Shown piece after piece: positions 1-13,556 of a stretch of 13,556 nt of DNA; position 1 is the first letter of the stretch, and the number at the start of each line of letters is the position of its first letter. The notes below the pieces were generated by a model. The model saw nothing but the letters and a program-made list of their open reading frames with translations, did no database searches and had not been told where the DNA came from. The DNA is from Anaerolineales bacterium (lineage in GTDB: Bacteria > Chloroflexota > Anaerolineae > 4572-78 > J111), in NCBI GenBank assembly GCA_012032575.1, contig JAAUSP010000158.1:1-13556 (forward strand), in the 5' to 3' direction. The position numbers were made by a program, and so were the translations under genes.

Positions 1-1
1 T

Positions 2-258
2 GACCCTGCCCCCACCTACACCCTTAATGGCGAATTGAACCCGGTCGAAGCCCTGGACCTGGCTATTTCCATCATGGAAGAAAAGGCCGAACCTGACCGC
101 TTATTAGTCAAAATGATCGAACTGCACCCAGCGCTGGGGCCGATCGCCACGCCCTGGCCCGCTACCGCCGCTATCTCAAAGCCATCGACCGCTTGAAACA
201 AATCAAGCGAGACTATCAAAACCAAATATCAAGGGAGATAACAGACAATGTTGACTGA
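2..258 (+). CDS. 3' end of an unknown gene, apparent frameshift, truncated by window edge
   Basis: The first 130 bases read openly in the frame starting at base 2 (acidic, with LDLAISIMEEKAEPD). From about base 133 the coding-like reading moves to another frame (ADRHALARYRRYLKAIDR, then a basic KQIKRDYQ stretch) and stops at TGA 256-258. One extra G in the GGGG run at 136-139 would join the two into one hydrophilic, probably helical C-terminus of about 86 residues. The stop overlaps the ATG of the RepA-like gene at 248, which fits operon coupling. I do not recognise the family. The break looks like a homopolymer length error but could be real decay. The reverse-strand open frame over this region is a shadow. 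Confidence 0.5.
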
Positions 259-1975
259 ACGCCGCCAGCAGCAGGCCATTTGCGACCTACTAAAAGGAGC
301 GCAACCCACCCTGAGCCACGATCAATTGACCCCACCCTATGATTATCTATGGGAGGTGGTCATGGTCAACCTGCCCGACAAATACCTGGCTATAGAAGCC
401 CTCATCACCGCCAGGCAAGAAAACCCCGATCTGTCCAGTATCATTGACGCCGTGATTGAACTCAAACCCAACCAGTCCCCCCACTATGAAACCCTGGCCT
501 ACATCGGCCCTAACCTGCCTCAAGTCACCTGGTACTGGCCCAACTGGGTACCTCGCGGCCTGCTCACCGTCCTGGCCGCCGATGCTGGAGTCGGCAAAAC
601 CAACGTCGCCCTTGACCTGGCCCGGCGTAACATCACCGGCCTGCCTGCCCCCGACGGCGTGCCGCTCGACATTCGCAGCGGCAATATTATCTATGTGGAT
701 GCTGAAGGTTTTCTCCCGGTCATTTACGACCGTCTGGCCAGTTGGAACATGGACCTCAGCCGCTTCTATCCTGTTCAACGGCCTGAACGTGACATGCTCG
801 ACCTGGGCCTGAAGCGCAATCAAGACCACCTGATTGATATGTGCTACGATCTGCGGCCCGACCTGCTCACCATAGACTCCCTTTCGACCATCAGCAGCAA
901 AGGGGAAAACAATGTAGAGGATACCCGCGAGCTGCTTAACTTCCTGGCTAATTTAGCCAACCACTTTAGCCTGGCGCTGCTCCTGGTCCACCACTTACGG
1001 AAGCCACCAGCCAACGGCCAAAACAGCGGGGCCGGCCCGGTCAGTCAGCACGATCTACGCGGCTCCGGCCACCTCAGTTATATGGCCCGCTCGATCTTGG
1101 GCCTGTACATTCCCGGCCTCGATCCCAACGGCCCGCGCCGGCTGCACATGGTCAAAACCAACCTATGCAAACACCCCCGCCCCCTGGTCATGAACTACAT
1201 CCCCGCCCCCGACAATCCCGACGTGCTGACCCTCACCTATGAAGTGAGTGAAAAGCCCCTCATCCCTGACACCCTCACCGGCGACTGTGCTATGTGGCTG
1301 CTCGACATGCTCAGCGAAGGCCCCATGAGTTACTTCGATCTTCGAGCCGCCGCCGTTGAAGCCGGCTACAACGAAACCATGCTCCAGGAGGCCCGCCGCA
1401 AGCTCGATTGGCAGGTAATTGATACCCACGGCGTCAAGCGTAAAGGCAACAAATGGGCCGTATATCAATCTGAAGACGACGAAACCGGCGACGAAAATCA
1501 CATGGCATCACATGGCTCAAACGGATCACATGGGAAAATTATACGAACCATTATTGACGAACCCCTCGAATCGCCCGAATTAACCCCCAAAACACCCGAT
1601 TTTATTTCGCGATTCGATAAAAAAGGGCCATCACATGGTCACATGGCCCATGTGATAGACCCCCCCCCCGAAATTTTACCCCCCCCCCTATCACATGGGC
1701 CATGTGAGCCATGTGATGTTATGCGAAATAACAGAAGGAGTCACAATGCAATTTCCCGTCAAAATCCGCTTTCCCGCCGGCGCACAAATCGCCGTCCCGG
1801 AAGCCTGGCAGCGCCTCCCCACCGGCGAAATAGAAGCCACCTATCACGATTACCAGGAGCTTTACTGGTCAATCACGCTCAGCCAGTGGCTCAAAGAATG
1901 GTCCCTAAAGGACCGGGCCGGCCCGCTACAGCAAGGCGAATTAATTCCCCGTGGAAACGCGGGCGCAGCTTATGA
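248..1975 (+). CDS. RepA-like AAA ATPase (AAA_25/RecA-fold helicase of plasmids and phages)
   Basis: A hexameric RecA-fold ATPase of this class usually acts as replicative helicase or helicase loader of a plasmid or phage. Seen in the sequence: Walker A AADAGVGKT at residues 110-118 (Lys117, Thr118); IIYVDAEG near 147-154; Walker B LLTIDS at 206-211 with Asp210; a sensor-like VHHLRKP near 247-253; and DLRGSGHL near 269-276, matching the RGS motif of AAA_25 proteins. Residues 345-405 resemble the winged-helix C-terminal module that ends many relatives (a GPM...DL...A...G pattern, then W403). The start has GGAG at 233-236. Residues after about 410 are low complexity and are coded by the TCACATGG repeats and C10 tracts. 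The last 75 or so (after base 1745) overlap a better gene in another frame and are Arg/Pro-rich, so the true end is probably earlier. The function class is firm; the role in replication is inferred. Confidence 0.85.
   Translation: MLTERRQQQAICDLLKGAQPTLSHDQLTPPYDYLWEVVMVNLPDKYLAIEALITARQENPDLSSIIDAVIELKPNQSPHYETLAYIGPNLPQVTWYWPNWVPRGLLTVLAADAGVGKTNVALDLARRNITGLPAPDGVPLDIRSGNIIYVDAEGFLPVIYDRLASWNMDLSRFYPVQRPERDMLDLGLKRNQDHLIDMCYDLRPDLLTIDSLSTISSKGENNVEDTRELLNFLANLANHFSLALLLVHHLRKPPANGQNSGAGPVSQHDLRGSGHLSYMARSILGLYIPGLDPNGPRRLHMVKTNLCKHPRPLVMNYIPAPDNPDVLTLTYEVSEKPLIPDTLTGDCAMWLLDMLSEGPMSYFDLRAAAVEAGYNETMLQEARRKLDWQVIDTHGVKRKGNKWAVYQSEDDETGDENHMASHGSNGSHGKIIRTIIDEPLESPELTPKTPDFISRFDKKGPSHGHMAHVIDPPPEILPPPLSHGPCEPCDVMRNNRRSHNAISRQNPLSRRRTNRRPGSLAAPPHRRNRSHLSRLPGALLVNHAQPVAQRMVPKGPGRPATARRINSPWKRGRSL
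1498..1716. repeat. Nine-copy TCACATGG cluster with inverted copies; candidate iteron origin or operator
   Basis: TCACATGG occurs at 1498-1505, 1508-1515, 1526-1533, 1631-1638, 1639-1646 and 1691-1698. Its complement CCATGTGA occurs at 1648-1655, 1700-1707 and 1709-1716. Two pairs form 17-bp palindromes with one central base (1639-1655 and 1691-1707). Between the two groups lie an 8-bp inverted repeat TCGAATCG/CGATTCGA (1566-1573 and 1610-1617) and an AT-rich stretch at about 1599-1625. Iterons inside the 3' part of an initiator gene are known from lambda O. Here the repeats sit in the tail of the RepA-like gene, so a replication origin or autoregulatory site is the natural inference. No biochemical role is proven by sequence alone. 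Confidence 0.7.
1660..1688 (+). repeat. Two C10 homopolymer tracts (1660-1669 and 1679-1688)
   Basis: Two runs of ten C lie only nine bases apart in the low-complexity tail of the RepA-like gene. Loss of one C in either tract would read on openly through the next gene's start (1746) to its stop at 1982, giving a fusion. Gain of one C would stop at TGA 1702-1704. Such tracts are prone to replication slippage and to sequencing error, so the recorded length should not be taken as exact. Confidence 0.7.
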
Positions 1976-1982: not shown

Positions 1983-2006
1983 ATTATCAACCCAAAGGAG
2001 AAACCC

Positions 2007-3163: not shown

Positions 3164-3213
3164 AACGGCCCCAGCATTTTAGCAGTTTTATACTGTCTAG
3201 CTGGGGCCGTTTT
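3164..3213 (+). terminator. Strong hairpin with T-rich tail upstream of the 3235 gene
   Basis: AACGGCCCCAGC (3164-3175) pairs perfectly over 12 bp with GCTGGGGCCGTT (3200-3211). The 24-base loop can form a smaller inner stem (AGCAG...CTGTCT), and TTTCATTT follows. It fits a rho-independent terminator for the 2007-3029 unit, or an attenuator, because the next ATG lies only about 22 bases downstream. In a filamentous-phage setting a hairpin in the intergenic region could also be a packaging signal. Confidence 0.6.
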
Positions 3214-3234
3214 CATTTCACTCAAGGACTGGCC

Positions 3235-3465
3235 ATGTACACCTTCACCATCTTCATGCTTGTCATTGTCCCAATGGTTTGGACCGCCTGGAAAATCTAC
3301 CAGGCCCGCCGCGCCATTCTCACCGCCGCCAAACAGCAAGCCGACCTGATGGAAGACATGCCCATCACCGAGGCCGCACGCTTTAGCCTGCTGGGGAAAA
3401 ATGACGTTCAGCCAATACCTGACCAACTACCTGAACTATACCTTGAAAGTCCGGGGCACCGTTGA
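3235..3465 (+). CDS. Small membrane protein, 76 aa
   Basis: ATG 3235 is preceded by AAGGA at 3224-3228. The N-terminus is one TM helix (MYTFTIFMLVIVPMVWTAW), followed by a positively charged segment (KIYQARRAILTAAKQQ) and an acidic/Pro-rich tail, so an N-out/C-in single-pass protein is likely. Its last 65 bases overlap the 3401 gene in another frame. The residues coded there (NDVQPIPDQLPELYLESPGHR) look less constrained, and the true C-terminus may be shorter if an indel lies here. The family is not recognised. Confidence 0.6.
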   Translation: MYTFTIFMLVIVPMVWTAWKIYQARRAILTAAKQQADLMEDMPITEAARFSLLGKNDVQPIPDQLPELYLESPGHR

Positions 3466-3706
3466 CCTGTCTCACACGGAAGTCTTAGCCGCCCTGACCG
3501 TATCCGCCGATATGGTTCTGACCGATTGGGAAAGCCTGCGCCAGATCAATACCGAAACCCACCTGAACCCAACCCAAAAAGCGGCCATTGTCGCCGCCTT
3601 GCGGATTGACAACCCTATTTCACGCCACACCCTGCTGAAGCATGACCGAAATCACCCTGACCACCTGGGAAGCCGCGCTTTATCTCCGCGACTCCACCTA
3701 CCTTAA
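3401..3706 (+). CDS. Hypothetical soluble protein, up to 101 aa
   Basis: ATG 3401 follows a weak GGGGAAAA. The residues before about 80 look like real protein (GTVDLSHTEVLAALTVSADM, LTDWESLRQI, LNPTQKAAIVAALRIDN), mostly helical and soluble. The last 20 residues (after HTLLKHD) overlap the 3642 gene and look like an out-of-frame tail. The TGA at 3643 in another frame would give the ATGA junction typical of this cluster, so a small indel near the 3' end is possible. The family is not recognised. Confidence 0.5.
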   Translation: MTFSQYLTNYLNYTLKVRGTVDLSHTEVLAALTVSADMVLTDWESLRQINTETHLNPTQKAAIVAALRIDNPISRHTLLKHDRNHPDHLGSRALSPRLHLP

Positions 3707-3854
3707 TCTGTTCATCATCGCCGCCATGCTGCTGCTGGTCTACAGTCTTTGGATTGCCGGCCGCCGCCTGGCTGAACGCCTCACCGCTGGCCTGGCTATC
3801 ATCGCCTATATGTCCCTGCTCGTTGTAGGAGTCGTCCAACTATGGCAGCTCTAG
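3642..3854 (+). CDS. Small two-TM protein, 70 aa
   Basis: ATG 3642 begins MTEITLTTWEAALYLRD, followed by a first TM segment (YLNLFIIAAMLLLVYSLWIA), a basic loop (GRRLAERL) and a second TM segment (AGLAIIAYMSLLVVGVVQLW). The hairpin topology with a basic loop suggests both ends outside and the loop in the cytoplasm. Its stop overlaps the 3842 gene by 13 bases. The MTE-TLTT start loosely recalls the Thr-rich starts of the 53-residue protein at 7745. No family is assigned. Confidence 0.6.
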   Translation: MTEITLTTWEAALYLRDSTYLNLFIIAAMLLLVYSLWIAGRRLAERLTAGLAIIAYMSLLVVGVVQLWQL

Positions 3855-4795
3855 CCACCTACAGCCCGCCCCAGCGGGTCATCATCGGCAAACGAGGCCG
3901 GACCAAAATCATTGAGGCGCCCGGCAATTTCCCGGCCCGGCCTGTGCCGGCCATCAACCGCAACGACTACACCCCCGAATATTGGGCCGCCCTGCAAGAC
4001 TACGCCTTCACCAAAAATACCCTGTCCAGGTATGACGAAAAAGATTTGTCTGCCGGCGACCGCCGCAGCTTGACCGAGGCCCGGGCCCGGGTTGAAGAAG
4101 AAAAAGAAATCTCTACCGTCGCCCGTGAGCATGGCTACATCCCCGGCCAGATGTCCCCCCGCGACTGGTCCGCCCTGGCCGATGAGCTGCGAGCCGAGGC
4201 CGGCGACGAACTGCGCTACGCCCAAGAAAGCGACCGCCAAGCCGCCGGCGACAAGCTGAGAGGCAAGGCTGATACCTGGATGCAGGTAGGGGGAGAAGCG
4301 CGGCTGGTCCGTAGTGGGGCGACGGCCAAGCAAGCCCGCGAAGTCACCCAAGAAATCAACGCCGGCACCAAAGCCAGCGCCGCCAAATATATGGGTGAGC
4401 AGCTTATCAAATTCGGCTACAGCCCTGAAACCGTTGAACGCCTGGACTACCAGCAGCGCCGCCGGCTGTTGTCTGAGATTAAATGGGGCGCACCGCAAAA
4501 GGCCCGGATCGCCGGCGTGAGCCTGGCTGAACGTGAGCGGGTCATCAATTCTGTGGCCGACCGCGACCGCCTGACCGCCGGCGCTATCGCCGTGAACCCC
4601 CGCGCCGGCAAAGGGTTAGAGACCTGGACCTACTACGAACAAGCCAGCCTCAAAGCAGGCCGTGAACCTGACTATGTGCCCGACCTGGGCGAAAACAACG
4701 CCCCTGACTATGTACTCAAACCGGACGCCGGCCAGAAGGCCAAAATTGACGCCCGCCGCGCCGCCCGTATCCAATCAGAGGAGATTGACTTTTAA
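3842..4795 (+). CDS. Hydrophilic, charged protein of unknown function, 317 aa
   Basis: ATG 3842 is preceded by AGGAG at about 3827-3831. The product is rich in Ala, Arg, Glu and Asp. It starts with a basic Pro-containing segment (PPQRVIIGKRGRTKII), then has a long helical stretch (about residues 70-200: LTEARARVEEEKEISTVAR, WSALADELRAEAGDELRYAQ), probably coiled-coil in part, and a basic C-terminus (KAKIDARRAARIQ). There is no TM helix, cysteine cluster, HUH or nuclease motif that I can see. Its TAA overlaps the ATG of the DUF4417 gene (TAATG). Scaffolding, DNA-binding or structural roles are possible; none is supported. Confidence 0.75.
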   Translation: MAALATYSPPQRVIIGKRGRTKIIEAPGNFPARPVPAINRNDYTPEYWAALQDYAFTKNTLSRYDEKDLSAGDRRSLTEARARVEEEKEISTVAREHGYIPGQMSPRDWSALADELRAEAGDELRYAQESDRQAAGDKLRGKADTWMQVGGEARLVRSGATAKQAREVTQEINAGTKASAAKYMGEQLIKFGYSPETVERLDYQQRRRLLSEIKWGAPQKARIAGVSLAERERVINSVADRDRLTAGAIAVNPRAGKGLETWTYYEQASLKAGREPDYVPDLGENNAPDYVLKPDAGQKAKIDARRAARIQSEEIDF

Positions 4796-5472
4796 TGCAA
4801 ACCGCCACCATGCCCACCTTCCTGGTCCGGTCCTCCGAGGACTGGCAGAAATTACCCGGCAACATTGACGCCCTGCACACCCGCCAGATTTTTGAGACCG
4901 ACAACGCCCTGGGCCTGCCCGTCATCGGCAATGCCGGCCCGATCCGCCCGGACCGGCTGCACCCCTACAACCAGCGCACCCGGTCAACCGACAAACTGAA
5001 CCGGTCTGCCGTTCATTTCTTCCTCGACGACTACCAGTTTGAGGTAGCCTGGAACCGGCCAAACCGCGCCCTGTCCTATGTCCGCCGCTTCGATGTCGCC
5101 ATTACCCCGGATTTTAGCATCTGGTCACACTGGCCGCTGGCCTTGCAGCAGTGGAACACCTACCGCAATCGCTGGATTGGTGCATTTTGGATATCCGAGG
5201 GTCTGACCGTCATCCCCTCGGTGAGCTGGGCCGGCCCGAAGTCGTTTGACTTCGCCTTTGCCGGCATCCTGCGAAATTCAACCGTCGCTATCAGTACCGT
5301 GGGCTGCAACGTCAATGCCAAATCAAGAGGCAATTTTATAGATGGCTACTGCGAGATGATCGAGCGCCTGACCCCCACGCTGGTGCTTTGCTACGGGCGC
5401 ATGCCCTTCGAGTCCATCGTCGAGACGATTGAATATCCCACCTTTTGGGAGGAGCGTAAAGCGTATGCGTGA
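4795..5472 (+). CDS. DUF4417 domain protein, 225 aa
   Basis: Residues about 70-205 match the DUF4417 pattern as I know it from phages, plasmids and other elements: FFLDDYQFEVAWNRP (76-89), FDVAITPDFSIW (99-110), W-NTYRNRWIGAFW (120-132), VIPSVSWAGPKSFDF (139-153), the later STVGCNV (167-173) and the final LVLCYGRMP region (197-204). The molecular function of the family is not established. The protein is soluble, with no signal peptide. The start overlaps the previous stop, and the 3' end overlaps the glycosyltransferase start at 5465. Presence of this family supports a mobile-element setting. Confidence 0.8.
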   Translation: MQTATMPTFLVRSSEDWQKLPGNIDALHTRQIFETDNALGLPVIGNAGPIRPDRLHPYNQRTRSTDKLNRSAVHFFLDDYQFEVAWNRPNRALSYVRRFDVAITPDFSIWSHWPLALQQWNTYRNRWIGAFWISEGLTVIPSVSWAGPKSFDFAFAGILRNSTVAISTVGCNVNAKSRGNFIDGYCEMIERLTPTLVLCYGRMPFESIVETIEYPTFWEERKAYA

Positions 5473-6175
5473 ATTGTTCAACGTTCAACGTTCAACGTTC
5501 AACGTTGCCTTTATCACCGCCCTGACTGCTCTGCTCCGGCTGCCCACGCTGGGCCTTGAAAGTTTCTGGTACGATGAGACTTTTACCGCCTGGCTTGCAG
5601 GGCTGCCGCTGCCCAACCTGGTGGCCGCCACAATGGGCGATGTTCACCCGCCCACCTGGTACTTGATTGAGTGGGGCATGGCCCACGCCCTGGGCGCAAG
5701 CGAATTTAGCTTGCGCCTCGTCTCTGCTCTGGCCGGCATTGCCCTGGTCCCCGCCGTCTATCGCCTGGCTTCAACGTTCAACGTTCAACGTTCAAACGTT
5801 CCTTTGGCCGCCGCCCTGGTCACGGCCCTGGCCCCGTTTGCTGTCTATTACTCTCAAGAGGCCCGGCCCTACTCGCTGCTGATGCTGGTCACAACGCTGG
5901 CCACTATCGGCCTGTTGGAGCGGCGCTGGTGGCTGCTGGTCGCCGGCTCTGTGTTTGCTCTTTATCTGCACAACTTAGCGGTTTTGTATGTCGCTGCCCT
6001 GGTCTGGCTTGGTCTGCATCGCTGGCGGCTAGAGTGGCGAATGTTAGGCTCTTTCGGCCTAATCGGTATGATCTGGTCGCCCTGGCTCATTTTTGGCCTG
6101 CTGCACCAGGTCAGCGACGTGCAAAACGGCTTTTGGGTGAGGCCCATCACCCTGGCACCCCGGCCTACATCCTGA
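5465..6175 (+). CDS. GT-C membrane glycosyltransferase (PMT/ArnT-like), N-terminal part of a frameshifted gene
   Basis: GT-C enzymes move a sugar from a lipid-phosphate donor to an acceptor on the outer face of the membrane. Here the first luminal loop carries the acidic catalytic-type motif FWYDET (Asp37, Glu38), followed by GDVHPPTWYLIEW, as in PMT_2/glycosyltransferase-39 proteins, then many TM helices. ATG 5465 is chosen over 5429 because GGAGGAG lies just upstream at about 5448-5454; it overlaps the DUF4417 stop. Four TTCAACG repeats code residues 5-14 and further copies occur at 5770-5798. The frame closes at 6173-6175, but one extra G at 6154 would join it to the next entry, for about 492 residues in all. 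The N-terminal call is firm; the acceptor is unknown. Confidence 0.8.
   Translation: MRELFNVQRSTFNVAFITALTALLRLPTLGLESFWYDETFTAWLAGLPLPNLVAATMGDVHPPTWYLIEWGMAHALGASEFSLRLVSALAGIALVPAVYRLASTFNVQRSNVPLAAALVTALAPFAVYYSQEARPYSLLMLVTTLATIGLLERRWWLLVAGSVFALYLHNLAVLYVAALVWLGLHRWRLEWRMLGSFGLIGMIWSPWLIFGLLHQVSDVQNGFWVRPITLAPRPTS
5477..5506 (+). repeat. TTCAACG heptamer tandem repeat (4 copies) at the 5' end of the glycosyltransferase gene
   Basis: Four exact TTCAACG units lie at 5477-5504, starting 12 bases after the ATG and coding the NVQRSTFNV-type peptide. Seven is not a multiple of three, so gain or loss of one unit would shift the frame right after the start. Confidence 0.85.
5770..5800 (+). repeat. 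TTCAACG heptamer repeat, second tract in the glycosyltransferase gene
   Basis: Three exact TTCAACG units plus one 8-base variant TTCAAACG lie at 5770-5798, again in frame within a loop of the glycosyltransferase. The one-base-longer unit shows how the tract can change reading frame. Confidence 0.8.
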
Positions 6176-6942
6176 CCGCTTTATTTTTCAGCGAGTCCGC
6201 CTCATTCCTGGCGGTTAATGCCGGCGCACTTGTCGCCCTGGTCCTGGCGTTAGCCTGGCGAAATATCAAGCAGCAAATTGAATTAACCGGCTTAGTGGTG
6301 GTCTGTCTGGGCCTGGCCGTCATCCTCTCGGTAGTGGTGGCCCCGGTTTTAATCGTCCGGGTCATGGCCCCGCTCGCGCCGGTCCTGTACAGCCTGGCCG
6401 CACCCGTTCTAACGTTCAAACGTTCAACGTTTAACGTTCTGGCCCTGCTGACCGCGTTGACCTGGTTCACCGTCTACACTGTCAGCGACTCCGTAGGCCG
6501 TCCCCCGGCACTGCAAAACCTTGAACCTTTAACCTCGAACCTTCAACCTTCAGACGGCCTCTTTCACGGCAACTTAGCCAGTTACATCACCCTGCACTAC
6601 TACCTGCCCAATGTGCCCCAAGTCGTTTGGCGGCAGGCCAATGATCTATCTCAGTCCCTTACGGACCAGACCAAAACGGCCATGCAGATGGATCAAGTCA
6701 CCTGGTCCGCCGTCAAATGCACCCGCCCGCGCTGGTGGATTATCACCGCCTCGAATCCGACCACCAGCCCCGCCGAGCGGGACTATCTCACCAACCTACT
6801 GACCACCTATCACGGCGAACAGCAAGCCGTCATCAAACAGGGGGAGATGGTAGACGCCCGCCTGTGGCTGGTGGACACCCGCCCTTACTGCCCCCTCCTG
6901 AGCCAGTCGAAGGGGCCGCAGCTTGCCGAGGCCCGCCCATGA
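6154..6942 (+). CDS. GT-C glycosyltransferase, C-terminal part (same gene after one-base frameshift)
   Basis: After a -1 shift at CTGG (6152-6155), the reading continues GTPAYILTALFFSESASF, then more TM helices (LTGLVVVCLGLAVILSVVVAPVLI, VLALLTALTWFTVYT) and a soluble, probably extracytoplasmic tail with Trp/Cys-containing segments. This is what a full GT-C protein needs after the N-terminal part. TTCAACG-like repeats at 6407-6438 and five AACCTTN heptamers at 6517-6551 lie in frame here. TGA 6940-6942 overlaps the next ATG (ATGA). The break may be a sequencing error (a G run) or true inactivation; the good coding quality on both sides favours error or recent mutation. Confidence 0.7.
   Translation, partial: GTPAYILTALFFSESASFLAVNAGALVALVLALAWRNIKQQIELTGLVVVCLGLAVILSVVVAPVLIVRVMAPLAPVLYSLAAPVLTFKRSTFNVLALLTALTWFTVYTVSDSVGRPPALQNLEPLTSNLQPSDGLFHGNLASYITLHYYLPNVPQVVWRQANDLSQSLTDQTKTAMQMDQVTWSAVKCTRPRWWIITASNPTTSPAERDYLTNLLTTYHGEQQAVIKQGEMVDARLWLVDTRPYCPLLSQSKGPQLAEARP
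6407..6438 (+). repeat. Degenerate TTCAACG repeat, third tract
   Basis: TTCTAACG, TTCAAACG, TTCAACG and TTTAACG follow one another, coding TFKRSTFNV in the C-terminal part of the glycosyltransferase. Same family as the tracts at 5477 and 5770. Confidence 0.75.
6517..6551 (+). repeat. AACCTTN heptamer repeat (5 copies)
   Basis: AACCTTG, AACCTTT, AACCTCG, AACCTTC, AACCTTC run end to end, coding the NLEPLTSNLQPS peptide in the soluble tail of the glycosyltransferase. It is a different unit from TTCAACG but has the same period. Confidence 0.8.
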
Positions 6943-7748
6943 CCCGTTTCACGCATCACGCATCACGCATCACACTGGCCTTTATTCTCAGCCTCAGCCT
7001 TAGCCTTAGCCTGATCTTCCCCGCTCTGGCCGATAGCCCGATGGTGGGTGAAATCCGCCTATGGCCGACCGACAACCCGCCCGCCGGCTGGCTCATCTGC
7101 GATGGCCGGACTCTGAACGTGGCCGCGTACCCGGAGCTGCACCAAACCATTTTCTGGGTTTATGGCGGCTATACCGGCGCAGAAGATCAATTTAAAATCC
7201 CGGATTTTCGGGGACGCGGCCCGATGGGGAGAGATACGTCACAATCTCAATTTGATGGTTGGGGCGAAAGTGGGGGGGAGATCAATCACACCCTGACGAT
7301 TAATGAGATGCCGTCTCATAATCACGGCACTTATTTCAACAATTCAGGTGCGGCAGGAACGGCAAAGCCCGCTTTACAGGCTTTCGGTTCTTCTGCGTCC
7401 GGCTCCTATACCGGCGGTAACCAGCCTCACAACGTCCTCGACCCCTATTTGACCGTGAATTTTATCATCTACACCCGGCGTGGGCCTGCCCGACCCCGAC
7501 TCCCACCCCCACCAACACGCCCGAACCGACCGCCCACCCCCGGCCCCACCGCCACCGCGACCACAACCGGCACCACCTATCTGCCCAACATCTACGGCAG
7601 CACTTACACCACCACTCTGAGCAGCGGCAAAACACTCACTCAGGCCGTACAGGTCAGCTTTGGCGAAATCATCATTTCCGGCCTGGTGCTGGCCGTCGTT
7701 GCTGTGGTGGCTTTACAAGTTCTTTACGGAGTGGTGTTCAAAAAATGA
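6939..7748 (+). CDS. Secreted, membrane-anchored tail-collar-domain protein, 269 aa
   Basis: Signal peptide at 1-31 (THHASRITLAFILSLSLSLSL...PALA), partly coded by GCATCAC heptamers and CTCAGC-type hexamers. Residues 35-100 match the phage tail collar domain (PF07484 type): GEIRLWPTDNPPAGWLICDG, AAYPELH, FKIPDFRGRGPMG. PHNVLDPYLTVNFIIYT at 163-179 is the usual end of microcystin-dependent-protein-like collar proteins. A Pro/Thr linker (about 185-212) leads to TYTTTL-x2-G-x-TL and a C-terminal TM helix (about 245-266) ending FKK. The ATG overlaps the glycosyltransferase stop. The linker seems to be read partly out of frame between two compensating indels (about 7482-7484 and 7533-7535). Surface display or receptor binding is inferred; the anchored architecture is unusual for this domain. 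Confidence 0.85.
   Translation: MTRFTHHASRITLAFILSLSLSLSLIFPALADSPMVGEIRLWPTDNPPAGWLICDGRTLNVAAYPELHQTIFWVYGGYTGAEDQFKIPDFRGRGPMGRDTSQSQFDGWGESGGEINHTLTINEMPSHNHGTYFNNSGAAGTAKPALQAFGSSASGSYTGGNQPHNVLDPYLTVNFIIYTRRGPARPRLPPPPTRPNRPPTPGPTATATTTGTTYLPNIYGSTYTTTLSSGKTLTQAVQVSFGEIIISGLVLAVVAVVALQVLYGVVFKK
6953..6973 (+). repeat. GCATCAC heptamer repeat (3 copies) in the collar-protein signal peptide
   Basis: Three exact GCATCAC units begin 14 bases after the ATG and code THHASRIT. Same unit as the tract at 8664. Confidence 0.85.
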
Positions 7749-7906
7749 CCGACACTTACACCACCACCCTGGTTACTGGTCAAACTCTGGCCATTACCAC
7801 CCGCGCCGATTTTGGCGAGACCATCATGGCCGCGCTGCTGCTGTCGCTGCTGGTCGTGCTGGTCCTGAGCTTTATTTGGAGAGTGACGCATGGACGTCAT
7901 CGCTGA
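7745..7906 (+). CDS. Small single-TM protein homologous to the collar protein's anchor, 53 aa
   Basis: ATG 7745 overlaps the collar-protein stop (ATGA). The product is TDTYTTTLVTGQTL, then FGETI, a TM helix (MAALLLSLLVVLVLSFIW) and a basic tail (RVTHGRHR). It aligns without gaps to the collar protein from residue 223: TYTTTL-x2-G-x-TL-x7-FGE-x-I, then the TM helix. It is therefore a stand-alone version of that anchor. There is no cleavable signal peptide; with N-terminus out and basic C-terminus in, it looks like a minor coat or pilin-like subunit. It is too short for most gene callers but well supported by the homology and the overlaps at both ends. Confidence 0.75.
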   Translation: MTDTYTTTLVTGQTLAITTRADFGETIMAALLLSLLVVLVLSFIWRVTHGRHR

Positions 7907-8015
7907 CACCATGTCACTCCTCACCACCGCCAGTATTGCTCTGGCCGTGGTCTTTATCGCTCTGGTGGCCAGCGCCGCCGTGAGCAACTTTATTGACGAT
8001 ATTACGGGTAAATAA
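7890..8015 (+). CDS. Tiny single-TM protein, 41 aa
   Basis: ATG 7890 follows GGAGAG at about 7878-7883 and overlaps the end of the previous gene by 17 bases. The product MDVIADTMSLLTT-ASIALAVVFIALVASAAVSNF-IDDITGK is one TM helix with acidic ends. TAA 8013-8015 abuts the next ATG at 8016. Size and topology match the minor coat proteins (pVII/pIX class) of filamentous phages, but such short hydrophobic sequences cannot be assigned by similarity alone. Confidence 0.6.
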   Translation: MDVIADTMSLLTTASIALAVVFIALVASAAVSNFIDDITGK

Positions 8016-8195
8016 ATGTGGAACGACCTACAACAAACCTTTTTTATCACGCTTGGCCCGTTCATTCAAAACATTTTACTGCCTGTTTTCATCGCGGCGG
8101 GTGTTTTACTCGCCCTGTTAATGCCCCTGGCCCGCTTCTGGAAACCAACCGAGAAAATTAAACTCGATCCAGGGTGGGAGCGGGACCGGGATTAA
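8016..8195 (+). CDS. Small single-TM protein with charged tail, 59 aa
   Basis: ATG 8016 directly follows the previous TAA. MWNDLQQTFFITLGPFIQN precedes a TM helix (ILLPVFIAAGVLLALLMPLA), then a charged cytoplasmic tail (RFWKPTEKIKLDPGWERDRD). It lies immediately upstream of the coat-like pair. Spacing and size suggest one more minor structural or assembly membrane protein. No ribosome binding site is strong, so translation is probably coupled to the upstream gene. Confidence 0.6.
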   Translation: MWNDLQQTFFITLGPFIQNILLPVFIAAGVLLALLMPLARFWKPTEKIKLDPGWERDRD

Positions 8196-8224
8196 TTCAG
8201 ACGAAAGGAGGTTCACAATATCCC

Positions 8225-8380
8225 ATGTCATTCTCGATTGATGTAGACACCATCTTTAGCTATGCCAGCCAGATCGTCAACGCGCTCATGCCCATCATCG
8301 CGCTAACCGCTGGTCTTGCTTTCGGTTTCTACCTGGCCCGCAAAATCGCCAGCCTCTTTAGTGGCGGTTTTGGCAAATAA
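8225..8380 (+). CDS. Major-coat-like small TM protein, copy 1, 51 aa
   Basis: ATG 8225 has a near-perfect AAAGGAGG at 8204-8211, the strongest ribosome binding site in the window, suggesting high expression. The product has an acidic amphipathic N-terminus (SFSIDVDTIFSYASQIVNA), a TM helix (LMPIIALTAGLAFGFYLA) and a basic, small-residue C-terminus (RKIASLFSGGFGK). This is the layout of mature inovirus major coat proteins (acidic outside, helix, basic end facing DNA). It has no leader, as in Pf3 coat protein, which inserts through YidC. VirB2-like pilins are usually longer with two TM helices. A coat or pilin role is inferred from architecture and context. Confidence 0.75.
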   Translation: MSFSIDVDTIFSYASQIVNALMPIIALTAGLAFGFYLARKIASLFSGGFGK

Positions 8381-8415
8381 CTTAACCATCATCTTTTAGA
8401 AAGGAGTCCTAACCC

Positions 8416-8568
8416 ATGTCATTCTCGATTGACGTAGACACCATCTTCACCTATGCCAGCCAGATCGTCAACGCGCTCATGCCCATCATCGCGCTAACCG
8501 CTGGTCTTGCTTTCGGTTTCTACCTGGCCCGCAAAATCGCGGCCCTGTTCTCTGGCGGTTTCAATTAA
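8416..8568 (+). CDS. Major-coat-like small TM protein, copy 2, 50 aa
   Basis: A tandem duplicate of the 8225 gene, period 191 bases, with its own AAAGGAG at about 8399-8405. An 89-base core (8452-8540 against 8261-8349) is identical. The products differ only at residue 12 (Ser/Thr), residue 43 (Ser/Ala) and the last one or two residues (Asn here, Gly-Lys in copy 1). Near-identity including third positions means a recent duplication or ongoing gene conversion. Both copies are intact, so both are probably used, as dose increase or as two subunit types. Confidence 0.75.
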   Translation: MSFSIDVDTIFTYASQIVNALMPIIALTAGLAFGFYLARKIAALFSGGFN

Positions 8569-8578
8569 TCGCCCCGGT

Positions 8579-8594
8579 TGCCTTGAGGAAGGCA
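8579..8594 (+). other. Small hairpin before the main terminator
   Basis: TGCCTT (8579-8584) pairs with AAGGCA (8589-8594) around GAGG, followed by GAAAAATAAT. It may stabilise the 3' end of the coat-like transcript, or form part of a two-hairpin terminator with the next stem. Confidence 0.4.
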
Positions 8595-8610
8595 GAAAAA
8601 TAATCACAAG

Positions 8611-8645
8611 CGCCCCGGCTGATCCCACCCCAGCCGGGGGCGTTT
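8611..8645 (+). terminator. Rho-independent-like terminator after the coat-like genes
   Basis: CGCCCCGGCTG (8611-8621) pairs with CAGCCGGGGGCG (8631-8642, one extra G) around a 9-base loop, then TTT. It sits between the highly expressed coat-like pair and the large 8658 gene. In Ff phages the central terminator lies at the same place, between genes VIII and III. The short T run suggests partial termination, allowing low read-through into the downstream genes. Confidence 0.7.
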
Positions 8646-8657
8646 GAACTAACAAAA

Positions 8658-10916
8658 ATGAACGCATCACGCATCACGCATCACGCATCACGCATCACCC
8701 TTCCCCTGCTGCTGGCCGCCCTGATCGGGGCCGGCCTGTTTGTGCTTGTCGCTGATCCGGCCCGCGCCGATGAGCCATGCGACAACCCGGAAGAAATCTA
8801 CCTGGAGAATGATTTTTCCGTTGAAAGCTCACTGCCAAATTTATACTTTCAGGCCGGGGCCGACTATTGGGACATGATCTGCACCTCTGGCTGGTGCGAC
8901 TACAGTGAGGATTTTGTTTCTATCAGCCAGCCGGTTTCATTTCAGGTAGGGGCCACCAGCCAACTGGCTATCAAAGTTCAGGCTTTTACGGGGGGCAACG
9001 GAACCAACTTTCGTAGTCGGGTGCATTTCACCGACGACACCGAAGCCTTTACCGGCTGGCGGCGGATTATTGCCGCCGGCGAGGTGGTTTTTCATTCTTT
9101 TGATTTGTCCAGCTACGCCGGCAAAAGCATTGATAAACTCTACATTGATTATCAGGGGACTTACGGCTTTTCAGAACAATACCGCTTTTTCCCTGGGGAA
9201 TCCTATTTTTATGGCTGCCCCGGCTCGCCCGGCAGTTCCGACCTCTGCCCCCTCGTCCAAAATGCCCACTTTGCCGCCGCCGATGGCTGGCTGCTCGATG
9301 GCACGGCGGTTATTAGTGACGGCGTGCTGGTGCTGGCTGCCGGCGACATCGCCGCCCAAAACCTGACCCTGGAAAGCAATAAAACCTATAACGCGGTTAT
9401 TTCGGCTACCACCGGCACCGCTTCGCTCAATGTGGTTTTAGGTGCTCAAAGCGAAGTGCTGGACATCGCCGAACCCGGTCTTTACACCGCCACTTTTACC
9501 ATGCCCGAATTAGCCGGCCCTGTTCTCTTTAGCCTGGAAAACAGCAGATCGGCTGAACTCGCGCTTGATTTTGCCTGTGTTTCGCTGGCCACCGGCGACG
9601 GAGCGCAGCCGGATTGTTTAGCCCCCGAAAATGGCACGTTTGACACGGCTCAAGGTTGGCAGTGGTATCGTAATGCCGCCTGGGAGCAAATCAGCCAAAA
9701 GGCCGCGCTGCCCTACAATGATGGCAGCGACGGCGACATGAGTTTAATTGTGGCCGGCAGAGCCTACACCATGCCGGCAGTTCCAGCCGGTCAATTTTTG
9801 ATTTTAGGCTATCAGGCTCAGGCATCCAGTGAAGTGGGTCTGGTCAGCAGTAAGGTAGGCACCGCCGAGACCGAACAAACGGTTTATAAAGCTCCCTTTA
9901 ATTACGAAGTTGACATCACAACTCAGGCCGGTCAAACCGTTGATATTGCACTGGCCGACAGTGGCACCAGTGACCTGTTACTGGATAATGTCTGTATTTT
10001 TCTCTCTGACAACCCGCCCGCCTTGCCCGACGCCGCCGACCCCGGCGGCATTTCCGGCATGGACTTTGGCTTCAACTACACCTGTAGTGATGTGCCCGCG
10101 CTGCTGGCCGGGTGGGGGATCAATGTCCACAGCTTGCAGGCTATCTATGATACTGGCGTCTCTGTCTGGGAGCCTCAGTATTACATCCCCTGGTTAGCGG
10201 CAGCCCTGTGGAGCAACGCGGGCCGGCCCATTTCCTGCTTCCTTGTGGAACAAATGCGCCTCTTGGCTGGTGTAACCCAGCAGCAAATTAACATGTTTTT
10301 GAACTACGTCAATTGGGTAGTGCGCTCCTCGAACCTGGCCGGCCCCTGGCTACAGCAAGGCGTTTTTTATCTCCGTAGCGCCATTTTTAGCCCGGCCACT
10401 GCCGCCCGTACCACCGCTTACGGCTGGTTAAATTGGGCCGTCCGCAGCGCCCGCGGCCTGGCCGAGTCTGCCGGCACAAACTGGAAACTGACCACCGATT
10501 GGATCAAAGAGGCCGCCGTCTATCTGTCCGAGTCCTCATTTGGCTCCGGGGAACAACTAATTGACAATTTGCCCGGCGGCGGCACGATGTTTGGCTTTAT
10601 TGATCTGCTCTGGGCCATGGCCACCCTTATGTGGGCGCTCTGGTCCTGGATATGGGATAACGTTTTTGTCCTGGTGGATATTCCCATCAGATTTTACTAC
10701 GCCTTCAACGACGGCGTACAAACCGAGGCGTTTTCAAGCCTGATGAGCTGTAGCGGCACTAATTTCTGGTGCGGGCTGCTCGCAGGGACACAGTTAGTCA
10801 ATCAAACCATCGGGCACACCATTCTTTATCCCATCGTGATCATGCTCATCATTATGGGGACGCTGGCTATTTTCTGGAAACACATCTGGCAGTTGGTTCA
10901 TTTGGACATTCGATAA
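8658..10916 (+). CDS. Large secreted, membrane-anchored beta-rich surface protein, 752 aa (candidate adsorption/tip protein)
   Basis: Signal peptide at about 1-37 (ITLPLLLAALIGAGLFVLVADPARA, cleavage near ARA-DEP); its first residues are coded by five GCATCAC heptamers. Three beta-sandwich-like, CBM-like segments follow (about 50-185, 200-312, 320-450), each ending in strand-Cys patterns such as LALDFACVSL and DLLLDNVCIF. From about 470 the protein becomes helical with Trp-rich amphipathic segments. It has hydrophobic stretches at about 645-678 and a clear C-terminal TM helix (ILYPIVIMLIIMGTLAIFW, 722-740) ending in a short basic tail. N-terminal binding domains plus C-terminal anchor after the coat terminator is the layout of inovirus pIII, though this is much longer. 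Sugar binding is a guess from the fold style. Confidence 0.75.
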   Translation: MNASRITHHASRITLPLLLAALIGAGLFVLVADPARADEPCDNPEEIYLENDFSVESSLPNLYFQAGADYWDMICTSGWCDYSEDFVSISQPVSFQVGATSQLAIKVQAFTGGNGTNFRSRVHFTDDTEAFTGWRRIIAAGEVVFHSFDLSSYAGKSIDKLYIDYQGTYGFSEQYRFFPGESYFYGCPGSPGSSDLCPLVQNAHFAAADGWLLDGTAVISDGVLVLAAGDIAAQNLTLESNKTYNAVISATTGTASLNVVLGAQSEVLDIAEPGLYTATFTMPELAGPVLFSLENSRSAELALDFACVSLATGDGAQPDCLAPENGTFDTAQGWQWYRNAAWEQISQKAALPYNDGSDGDMSLIVAGRAYTMPAVPAGQFLILGYQAQASSEVGLVSSKVGTAETEQTVYKAPFNYEVDITTQAGQTVDIALADSGTSDLLLDNVCIFLSDNPPALPDAADPGGISGMDFGFNYTCSDVPALLAGWGINVHSLQAIYDTGVSVWEPQYYIPWLAAALWSNAGRPISCFLVEQMRLLAGVTQQQINMFLNYVNWVVRSSNLAGPWLQQGVFYLRSAIFSPATAARTTAYGWLNWAVRSARGLAESAGTNWKLTTDWIKEAAVYLSESSFGSGEQLIDNLPGGGTMFGFIDLLWAMATLMWALWSWIWDNVFVLVDIPIRFYYAFNDGVQTEAFSSLMSCSGTNFWCGLLAGTQLVNQTIGHTILYPIVIMLIIMGTLAIFWKHIWQLVHLDIR
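8664..8698 (+). repeat. GCATCAC heptamer repeat (5 copies) in the signal peptide of the 752-aa protein
   Basis: Five exact units start 6 bases after the ATG. The current copy number keeps ATG and gene body in frame; one unit more or fewer would not. This gives a simple on/off switch if slippage occurs. Confidence 0.9.
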
Positions 10917-10922
10917 ACGCTC

Positions 10923-12323
10923 ATGAAACATCTTGTAAAATCCATTCCGCTTATTCTTGGTCTGCTACTGCTCACACCCTCTCGTGCTTTGGCTCAAAGC
11001 CCTTATTGGGATACGGCCTCACCCTGGGAAGATATTTGCGATAGCAGTTTACGCCATCAAGTGCCCTTGGTGGGGTTCGCCTTTAATCCCCCTGTTCCTA
11101 CGGGGGACTCGCCGTTCAAAGCCCTTAACCGATTTCCCCTTGAGTGGACAGATCAAGGCTGCTCCTGGGCCTTACTGCCCGGTTATGGTTCTGACATTGA
11201 CCCCAGCGGAAACCTGTATCGCCCGCCCGTCTCTTATTTTGAAGAAATAGCCCCCAGTGGAGTTATGGCGGTTAAATTCGGTTTCTATGCTCGTTCTGAC
11301 ACACCTACCACATTAGGGATCGAATTGTCGTACGCTGATGAAAATTTTGTAGTTAAGACGCTTTTTGAGGATGTTGATGTCACAGAAAGCTGGCAATATT
11401 TCTCTTTTGAAAAATATAATCTTGATTTGTGGGCTAATGGTGACAAACGGATCACGGCCTTTTACCCCACGCTGGATATATCTTCAGTTTGGGTGGACGC
11501 GGTTCAAGTGGACTACCTACACGTAGAGGGTTTTGTCCCGGTCATTTCTCCCACCCCGACTCGCACACCTATTCCTTATACGCCTACTGCAACCGCCACC
11601 GCCCGGCCAACACTCTGGGCGACTCCCACATCCATTTCCACGCCTGCGCCTGGCGTTACTATCACCCCTGTTACGCCTATTTCCACCAAGCAGCTACCGG
11701 CCAAATATAGCTTTGTGCCTACCTCGATCCCGGCAGTTAAACTACCGAGTTGGCCCCCTGTGGCCACAATGGCCCCTATTGCAACCCCGGCTACACCCAT
11801 CAGCCTGGCGCTTATTCCCACGCCAGGTTTTCCTAGCCATAGCTGGGTGCCTGCCCCCGGCGAACCGACCCCCACCCCATTGGCCTGGACCACCGATGTG
11901 GTTTCTTTCACCAGTTGGTTGAGCGCTTCGACCAGTATCAACGGCACGGATACTTTTACGGTTGCCTCTGCACCGGGTTGGTATGCGCCCTCCCTCCCGC
12001 GACCGCTCGCCGACGTGGGCTGGACCTTTGAAACGATGCAAGGCGGCATCGCCACCGGCCAGCGGTACAGCCTGGCGGCCTGGGCCGCTCTCGCCGGTTA
12101 TCTGGCCTCGCTGCCCATTCAACTTATCAAATCCGTGATGGACGTGTTTCGCTTTATGGGACCGTTTGGCCTGTTTGTCGGTTGGCTGCTGATCATGCTG
12201 CCCGGCGTCCTGTTCTTCAAAGTCTTCGAGTTTTTCAAGAGCCTGGTCATTCGCCTGTTCAACTTTATCTTTGACATGATCCGCTTCATCCTGGAACTCA
12301 TCAAGCTCATTCCCTTTGTGTGA
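10923..12323 (+). CDS. Secreted protein with Pro/Thr linker and hydrophobic C-terminus, 466 aa
   Basis: Signal peptide at 1-24 (KSIPLILGLLLLTPSRALA, cleavage before QS). Residues 26-203 look like a beta-sandwich domain (VSYFEEIAPSGVMAVKFGFYARSD...WVDAVQVDYLHVEG). A Pro/Thr-rich linker spans about 207-320, a likely O-glycosylation region. A short domain follows (323-370), then several long hydrophobic helices (SLAAWAALAGYLASLP, FMGPFGLFVGWLLIMLPGVLFF, LVIRLFNFIFDMIRFILELIKLIPFV). It starts 6 bases after the previous stop. By position it would match inovirus pVI, but it has a large extra surface domain. The family is not recognised; secreted and membrane-anchored is firm. Confidence 0.75.
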   Translation: MKHLVKSIPLILGLLLLTPSRALAQSPYWDTASPWEDICDSSLRHQVPLVGFAFNPPVPTGDSPFKALNRFPLEWTDQGCSWALLPGYGSDIDPSGNLYRPPVSYFEEIAPSGVMAVKFGFYARSDTPTTLGIELSYADENFVVKTLFEDVDVTESWQYFSFEKYNLDLWANGDKRITAFYPTLDISSVWVDAVQVDYLHVEGFVPVISPTPTRTPIPYTPTATATARPTLWATPTSISTPAPGVTITPVTPISTKQLPAKYSFVPTSIPAVKLPSWPPVATMAPIATPATPISLALIPTPGFPSHSWVPAPGEPTPTPLAWTTDVVSFTSWLSASTSINGTDTFTVASAPGWYAPSLPRPLADVGWTFETMQGGIATGQRYSLAAWAALAGYLASLPIQLIKSVMDVFRFMGPFGLFVGWLLIMLPGVLFFKVFEFFKSLVIRLFNFIFDMIRFILELIKLIPFV

Positions 12324-12327
12324 CATC

Positions 12328-12846
12328 ATGAAATACCTCATCATTTTTAGCATTGTAATTTCATCCTTCATCCTTCCGCCTTCATCCTTCGCCCAAAGCC
12401 CCGAACCTACGCCCGATCTGGACCTGCCCTACCACTTTGAACCGGTTGACTTCGACGAAAACGCCGCGCCCGATCTGCCGCTGCCCAGCGTCACCACCCC
12501 GGACTTTATCAACAAAGTGGGCAGTTACGCCCTGACCGTGTTTTCCTTGTTGGATAAGTACCAGGTGCTTGGCATTTTCGTGGTTATTATGCTGGGCCTG
12601 TCCTGTTTGTGGTGGTTGTACAGCTTTGTGACTGACCGGCCTGTACTGCCGACGCTCAATGTTTCCGGCGGCCTCGATATGGCTGACCAGGTGGGCGACG
12701 CCTACTTTGATGACCAGTACCGCCGCGCCGAAGCCACCTTTGACCACCCCCATGCCCGTGAACAAGCCTTTAGTGAAATTGCGGACGTGCGCGGCTCCTT
12801 CAAAGAGAACACCCGCAAAATTAAGAAGCTGGTCAAATACTTCTAA
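12328..12846 (+). CDS. Signal-peptide, single-TM protein with charged cytoplasmic tail, 172 aa
   Basis: ATG 12328 is chosen over the upstream TTG because it starts directly with a signal peptide (KYLIIFSIVISSFILPPSSFAQ). An acidic, Pro-rich exported segment (24-60) precedes a TM region (about 79-101: YQVLGIFVVIMLGLSCLWWLYSF). The C-terminal 70 residues are charged, helical and basic at the end (FKENTRKIKKLVKYF), on the cytoplasmic side. Part of the signal peptide is coded by TTCATCC-like heptamers. The stop overlaps the next ATG (TAATG). An assembly or coupling protein of the inner membrane is possible; no family is recognised. Confidence 0.7.
   Translation: MKYLIIFSIVISSFILPPSSFAQSPEPTPDLDLPYHFEPVDFDENAAPDLPLPSVTTPDFINKVGSYALTVFSLLDKYQVLGIFVVIMLGLSCLWWLYSFVTDRPVLPTLNVSGGLDMADQVGDAYFDDQYRRAEATFDHPHAREQAFSEIADVRGSFKENTRKIKKLVKYF
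12360..12394 (+). repeat. TTCATCC-like heptamer repeat (5 degenerate copies) in a signal peptide
   Basis: TTCATCC, TTCATCC, TTCCGCC, TTCATCC, TTCGCCC run end to end, coding SSFILPPSSFAQ. Period seven, more degenerate than the tracts at 8664 and 5477. Confidence 0.75.
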
Positions 12847-13382
12847 TGTCAAAAGTTGAATTTCTCGAACCCGGACAGGAACCGATGACGCTGAACCGCG
12901 ACAAACGCGGCCAGCGGGGACACCGTAGAGGAATGATGGAAAAATCAGACCTAATCAAAATAATAATTTTTGGAGCTTTGTTTTTGCTCTGTGTCTGGTA
13001 TGGCCTGACCTGGGTTTTTGGCGGCTCCAAACTCGGCAAAGCTCAAGCCGCTTCAGCGGCTGAAGAACCGGCCATCATTCGCACCGTCGCCCCATTGGAG
13101 ACTCCAACCCTCCAACCCTCCAACCCTCCAACCTTCCAACCTTCCAACCTCGAACCGGCCCAACTCGCCGCCACCGCCCAAATGCAGGCGGCCATCAATC
13201 GGCCCGCCGCTGTTGATCCGGCCGGCTCGCCCTACCTGGTCGGCGTTGTCACCTATGAGACCGGCTGCCCGTTGAGCAACCTGGGCTTTACCACGTCCGG
13301 CGCAAACGGTACGCCGTACTACCTTTACCTGTCCAGTATGTTGGACCGCGACCCGTACAGCGTCAGGTATTTTGTTGGGTGA
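12846..13382 (+). CDS. Membrane protein with N-terminal TM and exported domain; frame broken near the right edge
   Basis: ATG 12846 overlaps the previous stop. A basic cytoplasmic N-terminus (about 1-36) precedes a TM helix (KIIIFGALFLLCVWYGLTWVF, 38-58), then a low-complexity stalk with the 8-base repeat (LQPSNPPTFQPSN). A folded domain then begins (SPYLVGVVTYETGCPLSNL, GTPYYLYLSSMLDRDP). The open frame stops at 13380-13382, but coding-like sequence continues in the next frame, so the protein is probably longer and open at the window edge. Alternative starts are 12885 and 12933. The single N-terminal TM plus Pro-rich stalk and exported domain superficially recalls VirB10-type or phage assembly proteins, but I see no decisive motif. 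Confidence 0.65.
   Translation: MSKVEFLEPGQEPMTLNRDKRGQRGHRRGMMEKSDLIKIIIFGALFLLCVWYGLTWVFGGSKLGKAQAASAAEEPAIIRTVAPLETPTLQPSNPPTFQPSNLEPAQLAATAQMQAAINRPAAVDPAGSPYLVGVVTYETGCPLSNLGFTTSGANGTPYYLYLSSMLDRDPYSVRYFVG
13103..13150 (+). repeat. TCCAACCC/T octamer tandem repeat (6 copies)
   Basis: Three TCCAACCC units are followed by three TCCAACCT units, all in frame in the stalk just after the TM helix of the 12846 protein. A period of eight shifts the frame when one copy is gained or lost. It is the only eight-base tract; the others have period seven. Confidence 0.9.
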
Positions 13383-13556
13383 TGGTAAATACGAAGCCTG
13401 CAAGCTGCCCAACATCCCCGGTAGGTTTCTCTGGAAGTGGGGCGGCGAGATGATCGAAATTCAAGCGCCCTTATCGCCGATACCACCGTCAAGAAAATAG
13501 TGGCAGACGCCAAGCAAGGTTCAAACACCGACGCCCAGAGCGCCGAGCGAGCGCAA
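13378..13556 (+). pseudogene. Probable continuation of the 12846 gene after indels, partial
   Basis: From 13378 one frame reads GDGKYEACKLPNIPGRFLW and onward to about 13467. Then a second shift gives ALIADTTVKKIVADAKQG and continues open to the edge. Removing one G from GGG (13377-13379) and adding a base near 13465-13467 would make one continuous protein with the 12846 gene. The residues are well behaved (paired Cys, Trp, helical C-terminal part), so the shifts are more likely sequence errors than true decay. Confidence 0.5.

Follow-up and report, generated by a model that had tools for sequence, protein, structure and literature searches.

What kind of element encodes a run of tiny membrane proteins followed by two large surface proteins in an Anaerolineales bacterium? 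The question is raised by contig JAAUSP010000158.1 (assembly GCA_012032575.1), which was analysed in its entirety (positions 1-13,556, hereafter the window). A preliminary description had interpreted positions 7745..12846 as the structural module of a giant inovirus-like filamentous particle with the gene order of the Ff phages, an interpretation that our analysis partly supported. The module is real and recurrent, and we found no description of it in the literature searched. That it works in the manner of an inovirus coat module, carried by a mobile element of Chloroflexota and giving a filamentous particle extruded through the membrane, is our preferred explanation, which we regard as an even prospect.

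All the open reading frames (ORFs) on which this interpretation was built, of 53, 41, 59, 51, 50, 752, 466 and 172 amino acids (aa), are present at their loci, and the module reads 53-41-59-51-50-hairpin-752-466-172-178 before the contig ends (Table 1). Its limits had to be moved: the module begins one gene earlier, at the Collar-domain protein (6939-7748), and probably does not stop at 12846 but extends as far as the contig does, with a 178-aa transmembrane (TM) protein at 12846-13382. The term giant is not established, the contig being a fragment; a search for exact overlaps of 8-299 bases between its ends, which would indicate circularity, gave none. The genes judged real in the ORF list all lie on the + strand, GC skew is negative in 13 of 13 intervals, and the window gave no Rfam match and no tRNA. 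Hydropathy analysis (Kyte-Doolittle) confirmed a single hydrophobic segment in each of the five small proteins, with values of 1.96-2.85. With 41-59 aa and one TM-like segment each, all five fall within the 30-90 aa and single TM given for inovirus structural proteins in a large survey of filamentous phages (PMC6813254). Signal peptides were called by eye from the N-termini, without a predictor.

The evidence that carries the comparison comes from the two coat-like proteins. Their genes form a tandem duplication (152 nucleotides, nt; 93% identical) and, as previously described, are preceded by very strong ribosome sites (AAAGGAGG and AAAGGAG). The 51-aa protein has ten database relatives of 49-50 aa with 73-94% identity, these being all ten candidates scored, and the alignment of 12 coat sequences contains 28 invariant columns, a conservation that contrasts with the divergence of the 752-aa family (11 relatives, 36-57% identity). 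Comparison of the coat profile with the proteins of Thermus phage OH3 (Paulinoviridae, Tubulavirales; LC035386; PMC4763002) revealed a match to the major coat protein, gene VIII, with a profile-comparison probability (prob) of 50.3 and an E-value of 1.6e-4 over 35 columns (7-41 versus 9-43). Gene VIII was singled out among six OH3 proteins, the other 17 pairs formed between the profiles of the 752-aa family, the 466-aa C-terminus and the coat family and the OH3 proteins reaching a prob of at most 4.1. The score was attained by none of 200 composition shuffles and by none of 220 natural small TM ORFs, drawn from 16S loci, mostly of Chloroflexota. This OH3 protein, the best match of the coat profile, has 46 aa with an acidic N-terminus and a basic C-terminus; the charges before and after its TM segment are -2/+4, against -2/+3 or +2 in the window copies. 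Common descent of the window and OH3 coats is possible on these sequence comparisons.

The arrangement of the genes was compared with that of known filamentous phages. OH3 carries VII-IX-VIII-III-VI and a morphogenesis gene (Zot) on one strand, a layout like that of the window. M13 of the Ff group (Inoviridae; V00604) has VII-IX-VIII, then III-VI-I, with gene IV after gene I, and its small proteins are similar in size to those of the window. Propionibacterium phage B5 (Paulinoviridae; AF428260), whose host is Gram-positive, shows the same order: ORFs 3-5, all small, precede the large ORF6, after which come ORF7, again small, and ORF8. No secretin is annotated in OH3. The VII-IX-VIII-III-VI-I order thus agrees with OH3 and M13 in sizes and TM layout, with sequence support for the coat alone and gene I not seen. 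Differences from OH3 are also clear. Its genome of 5.7 kb is annotated with a replication endonuclease and a single-strand binding protein, whereas the window encodes an AAA_25 helicase, and its III and VI proteins have 506 and 142 aa, with no Collar-domain protein annotated, whereas the window has surface proteins of 752 and 466 aa and no visible Zot. The terminator placed after the coat genes corresponds to a real hairpin (-36.1 kcal/mol for 91 nt folded as RNA, z-score -3.8, none of 200 shuffles as good). It lacks a following T run and is not in the terminator scan listing, so its role as a terminator is plausible only.

The 752-aa protein, which by analogy may play a pIII-like role, was modelled with strands at 45-450 and helices at 476-747, at low confidence (predicted local distance difference test, pLDDT, 56.6; predicted template modelling score, pTM, 0.27). 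Three larger relatives (P0010, P0011 and P0012) contain additional helices rich in Trp in their C-terminal third; a likeness of these to OH3 protein VI, suggested by eye, obtained no support from profile comparison (prob 0.8). The model of the 466-aa protein shows helices at 360-462, with pLDDT values of 77-97 in ten-residue blocks, and within its family the head varies and the C-terminus that follows the Pro/Thr stalk, some 145 residues with confidently predicted helices, is conserved. Against the PDB, the best matches of the head include carbohydrate-binding modules (CBM16, CBM4 and CBM22) with E-values of 1.8e-4 to 1e-3 and TM-scores by chain length mostly of 0.37-0.44, other beta-sandwich proteins scoring beside them; in BFVD it resembles phage tail-fibre or CenC-like proteins. 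In the relative P0020 the head of the window's 466-aa protein is joined to another kind of C-terminus, and the head is missing from most of 22 family members listed, which argues that the heads are modular. P0020 is not a 466-type head on a 752-type anchor, since the 752 profile does not match it. Foldseek matches of the 752-aa model to insecticidal and other proteins (pTM 0.27), and of the 466-aa model to binary-toxin binding components and enteropeptidase, reflect generic beta-sandwiches and give no evidence of a toxin.

At the other side of the small genes, the Collar-domain protein ends in a clear membrane anchor (hydropathy 2.87) that is paralogous to the adjoining 53-aa protein (41% identity over 44 aa). 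It shares its Collar domain (PF07484) with tail proteins of tailed phages. The corresponding IMG/VR proteins were examined for comparison; 26 ORFs were located, one of which (L182) is cut by the contig end, leaving 25 that could be judged. In contrast to the window protein, no C-terminal hydrophobic segment exceeds 0.93 in 24 of these 25; the remaining one, L203, has a borderline value of 1.6. No Zot match occurred in the 27 IMG/VR records with related Collar domains, among which one ORF (L189) was not located and another (L202) covers the match partly. By eye, no ribosome site followed by a start codon was seen to separate the Collar half from the anchor half. The frame of the Pro-rich linker may hold small errors, because other genes of the contig are frame-broken.

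Recurrence of the module was read from the identical sizes of the longest contigs on which the relatives occur. The longest contig is 30,546 bases for each of a coat (P0063), a 752-type (P0009) and a 466-type protein (P0018), and 7,801 bases for both a coat (P0062) and a 466-type protein (P0021). In a Chloroflexota metagenome-assembled genome (MAG), a 752-type (P0007) and a 466-type protein (P0019), both on 76,075 bases, bear the neighbouring gene numbers BroJett011_61890/61900. Since relatives of the three families share same-sized contigs, the module recurs, this linkage being indirect but specific. The organism-named relatives of the two large proteins (BroJett011_61900, BroJett011_61890 and KJ077_05970) all belong to Chloroflexota/Anaerolineae MAGs, which is indirect evidence on the host of the contig. 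The 752 profile matched none of 14 and none of 396 genomes, and a pattern scan of GTDB r220 contigs did not find the family. The profile of the whole 466-aa family matched in 163 of 396 Anaerolineae genomes; these matches were set aside as low complexity, because among those listed they cover model positions 46-266 of 415, the stalk, outside the C-terminal domain at 264-408. The profile of that domain gave no match in sets of 400, 46, 171, 56, 63 and 28 Anaerolineae genomes, which overlap and include no positive-control genome, a setting in which an empty result is uninformative by itself. No relative of the 752-aa protein is encoded in any phage or plasmid record, and the 466-aa relative searched for had no match in phage records. 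This distribution fits an extrachromosomal element that escapes both binning and virus callers.

A number of results weigh against an inovirus-like nature of the module. The preliminary description had noted the lack of a Zot/pI ATPase, and none was found among the window proteins scanned, the contig ending where the gene is expected; nor was a rolling-circle initiator found among them. According to PMC6813254, the pI ATPase is the only conserved inovirus marker, replication genes being broadly shared across inovirus families. The module is not filed as an inovirus because this marker of the group was not found here; membership of Tubulavirales is not established, and the ATPase would be its test. 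The OH3 score was reached by 3 of 300 shuffles that keep the charge and hydrophobicity pattern, which indicates that most of the match is due to the pattern itself, an acidic N-terminus and a basic C-terminus on either side of a hydrophobic core. The coat profile did not match the coats of Pf3, Pf1, M13 and I2-2 (prob 0.2-0.7, with 0.7 for the 73-aa M13 precursor), nor did it match the 57-aa B5 orf5, taken as the coat of that phage, beyond a weak prob of 5.8. The three smallest proteins were compared with twelve coat-type proteins of OH3, B5, M13, I2-2 and Pf3; the best values, a prob of 17.3 for the 53-aa protein (B5 orf3), 15.3 for the 59-aa protein (OH3 VIII) and 6.2 for the 41-aa protein (B5 orf4), are not significant, and against inovirus I/Zot, III and VI proteins they remained at or below 1.2. 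Of the products starting at 8225, 8658 and 10923, the coat gave the OH3 match described above; for the 752-aa family and the 466-aa C-terminus no inovirus protein compared scored significantly, and the 172- and 178-aa proteins had no match above a prob of 2.3. The agreement with the Ff order is one of layout, without the marker ATPase and without significant inovirus matches for the non-coat proteins. Pattern scans of IMG/VR found neither the coat nor the 752- or 466-aa family. Finally, one of the 47 relatives of the 466-aa protein lies on a contig of 412,946 bases and is thus a copy in, or assembled with, something large, possibly a chromosome.

Searches around the missing ATPase brought several candidates that were discarded. 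PF05707 (Zot) matched in 37 of 396 Anaerolineae genomes, 36 over the cut-off; six of these loci, read by eye and not by domain search, appear to contain HerA, VirB4-like or other ATPases. A 2-kb contig in an Anaerolineae bin (L151) combines a secretin-like ORF with a Zot match (E-value 1.9e-12), a combination typical of Gram-negative inoviruses, and probably reflects contamination. In the window, phrog_197 ('Zot-like toxin') matches the 178-aa protein (E-value 6.9e-6) over the TM segment and Pro-rich linker only, a match judged compositional; NCBIfam GltJ matches the same stretch (E-value 0.002). The frame of this ORF is probably broken near 13375, and a second frame is open to the contig end at 13556, making one or two breaks likely. 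PHROG searches left the 752-, 466-, 172-, 53-, 41- and 59-aa and coat proteins without a significant match; among 12 coat members, phrog_7750 (E-value 0.011, two members) and phrog_2186 ('virion structural protein', E-value 0.02, seven members) were not counted as significant.

Could the same genes build something other than a filamentous phage? A plasmid-borne type IV secretion system, conjugative or of pilus type, with the 50-aa protein as a pilin-like subunit and the 752- and 466-aa proteins as VirB6-like channel or adhesin proteins, appears unlikely. Pfam T4SS_pilin matches one of 12 coat members, at an E-value of 0.0096 that we count as non-significant and that also speaks against a phage coat; the 178-aa protein has what we take to be a VirB10-like layout (short N-terminus, TM segment, Pro-rich linker), the helicase-type Rep and iteron-like octamers are plasmid-like, and relatives occur on 30- and 76-kb contigs. 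However, no VirB4, VirD4 or relaxase was present among the window proteins scanned, no plasmid record encodes a 752-aa relative, and coat matches in plasmid records are at chance level (E-values 6-7). Type IV secretion pilins, moreover, usually have two TM helices, where the window coat has one.

A membrane-containing, non-filamentous virus of pleolipovirus, plasmavirus or fusellovirus type, with the small TM proteins in its envelope and the two large proteins as anchored spikes, would accommodate equally well many small TM proteins next to large, C-terminally anchored ones with a sugar-binding-like head. We consider it distinctly unlikely, because the profile match of the coat family is to the coat of a filamentous phage and the genes are ordered as in OH3 and M13; the lack of significant PHROG matches for the module proteins counts weakly here, the coverage of such viruses in PHROGs being unchecked. 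As for tailed phages (Caudoviricetes), no capsid, portal or terminase was found among the window proteins scanned, the only phage-family matches being those of the Collar domain, the DUF4417 protein and the helicase. A surface appendage or adhesin array derived from the host, on a plasmid or chromosome, would explain surface proteins with a carbohydrate-binding-like fold beside a glycosyltransferase, as well as the 412,946-base contig, and is very unlikely in our judgment. A core host feature is disfavoured because the 466-aa C-terminal domain matched no Anaerolineae genome searched (764 overlapping genome searches, without a positive control), and the helicase, octamer cluster, DUF4417 protein and Collar domain look mobile-element-like.

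If the module does form a filamentous particle, the duplicated 50/51-aa protein would be the major coat, inserted in the membrane with its acidic end out and its basic end in, and would be transferred from there onto the DNA. The 53-, 41- and 59-aa proteins would act as end-cap minor coats, and the 53-aa-type anchor, whose fusion to the Collar domain is observed, would hold this domain at one end of the particle, where it would serve as an adhesin. The other end would be capped by the 752- and 466-aa proteins through pIII/pVI-like membrane parts, with predicted sugar-binding heads presented on Pro/Thr stalks that a PMT_2-type enzyme may glycosylate. The AAA_25 helicase would replicate the genome from the octamer/hairpin region, perhaps also the packaging signal, and the gene of the motor ATPase is predicted just beyond base 13,556.

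Taken further, the element could belong to a novel lineage of Chloroflexota filamentous DNA viruses, of at least 13.5 kb, overlooked by searches that rely on a recognisable Zot. Replication would proceed with a helicase, from an origin formed by the C-tract hairpin and the octamers, in place of a rolling-circle initiator, and both ends would bear swappable glycan-binding heads, one of them a Collar domain of tailed-phage type fused to a minor coat protein. We hold this fuller proposal to be possible but doubtful. The anchored Collar domain, CBM-like head, PMT_2-type glycosyltransferase and hairpin/octamer region are additions of the present analysis. The survey in PMC6813254 was built on a single marker gene, the pI/Zot ATPase, and the term Chloroflexi is absent from its main text. 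A coat module that recurs in 10 (coat), 11 (752-aa) and 47 (466-aa) protein clusters, and whose other proteins resemble none of the inovirus proteins compared, would expose a blind spot of marker-based surveys, add a host phylum to those named in that main text, and place a receptor-binding-type domain of tailed phages on a filament. The literature searched contains nothing joining Chloroflexota with inovirus, Tubulavirales with Chloroflexota, or inovirus with tail collar; 'filamentous phage' and 'Chloroflexi' do co-occur.

Table 1. Features of the window, with the evidence on which each was assigned
Positions	Strand	Feature	Evidence
248..1975	+	AAA_25 RecA-fold helicase, RepA-like replication protein	Pfam AAA_25 E 2.4e-25; phrog_239 primase/helicase E 1.9e-16
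1498..1716	.	Nine octamers TCACATGG/CCATGTGA	Zero copies elsewhere in the window
1630..1717	.	DNA hairpin, 29 base pairs, one bulge, 29-nt loop with two C tracts	DNA folding
4795..5472	+	DUF4417 protein	Pfam E 8.9e-54; family common in phages
5429..6942	+	Membrane glycosyltransferase, PMT_2 type	PMT_2 E 5.1e-6 (first frame); two overlapping frames
6939..7748	+	Signal-peptide-like start, phage tail Collar domain, Pro/Thr linker, C-terminal TM anchor	Collar E 8.3e-16; phrog_9116 tail protein E 2.8e-31
7745..7906	+	53-aa single-TM protein, minor-coat-like	ORF list, hydropathy, paralogy to Collar anchor
7890..8015	+	41-aa single-TM protein, minor-coat-like	ORF list, hydropathy
8016..8195	+	59-aa single-TM protein, minor-coat-like	ORF list, hydropathy
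8225..8380	+	51-aa coat-like protein, copy 1	10 relatives; OH3 major coat profile match
8416..8568	+	50-aa coat-like protein, copy 2	Duplicate of copy 1
8607..8647	+	Strong hairpin between coat genes and 752-aa gene	RNA folding
8658..10916	+	752-aa protein, signal-peptide-like start, beta-rich ectodomain, hydrophobic helical C-terminal third	11 relatives; low-confidence model
10923..12323	+	466-aa secreted protein, CBM-like domain, Pro/Thr stalk, conserved membrane-helix C-terminus	47 relatives; model
12328..12846	+	172-aa protein, signal-peptide-like start and one further TM segment	ORF list, hydropathy
12846..13382	+	178-aa protein, short N-terminus, TM segment, Pro-rich linker, start of outer domain	ORF list

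Upstream of the module, the helicase-type Rep of the preliminary description corresponds to the AAA_25 match; neither a rolling-circle nor a transposase replication gene was found in the incomplete contig, which carries the helicase instead. Third-codon-position GC in this ORF drops from 0.62-0.82 to 0.37-0.42 from about position 1450 onward, and its coding part probably stops near 1450-1500. A separate ORF with its own ribosome site begins at 1746. Loss of the GC signature, together with this new start, makes 1498-1717 probably non-coding. The hairpin in this interval folds as DNA at -30.4 kcal/mol (z-score -9.8), a value equalled by none of 200 shuffles. An origin is the natural reading of this octamer- and hairpin-containing region beside the AAA_25 gene, which is thus a candidate origin on its sequence features. 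The packaging signal of Ff phages is a hairpin, and a candidate packaging signal would be an attractive second reading. The AAA_25 protein has no relative in phage records and weak matches in three plasmid records; a pattern scan did not detect it in IMG/VR.

A relative of the DUF4417 protein is encoded in 486 of 50,697 phage records, mostly of Mycobacterium, Streptococcus and Gordonia phages. The frame of the neighbouring PMT_2-type gene is broken near 6140, perhaps by a sequencing error; possible substrates of the enzyme are the Pro/Thr stalks carried by the module's surface proteins. Heptamer tandem repeats (GTTCAAC, TTCAACG, TCACGCA and ACGCATC) occur at 5476-5506, 5770-5801, 6949-6973 and 8662-8698, three of the four at gene starts and the one at 5770 inside the glycosyltransferase gene. 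Those at 6949 and 8662 translate in frame as HHASRIT-type repeats preceding the hydrophobic N-terminus, and the repeats are possible phase-variation or recombination sites.

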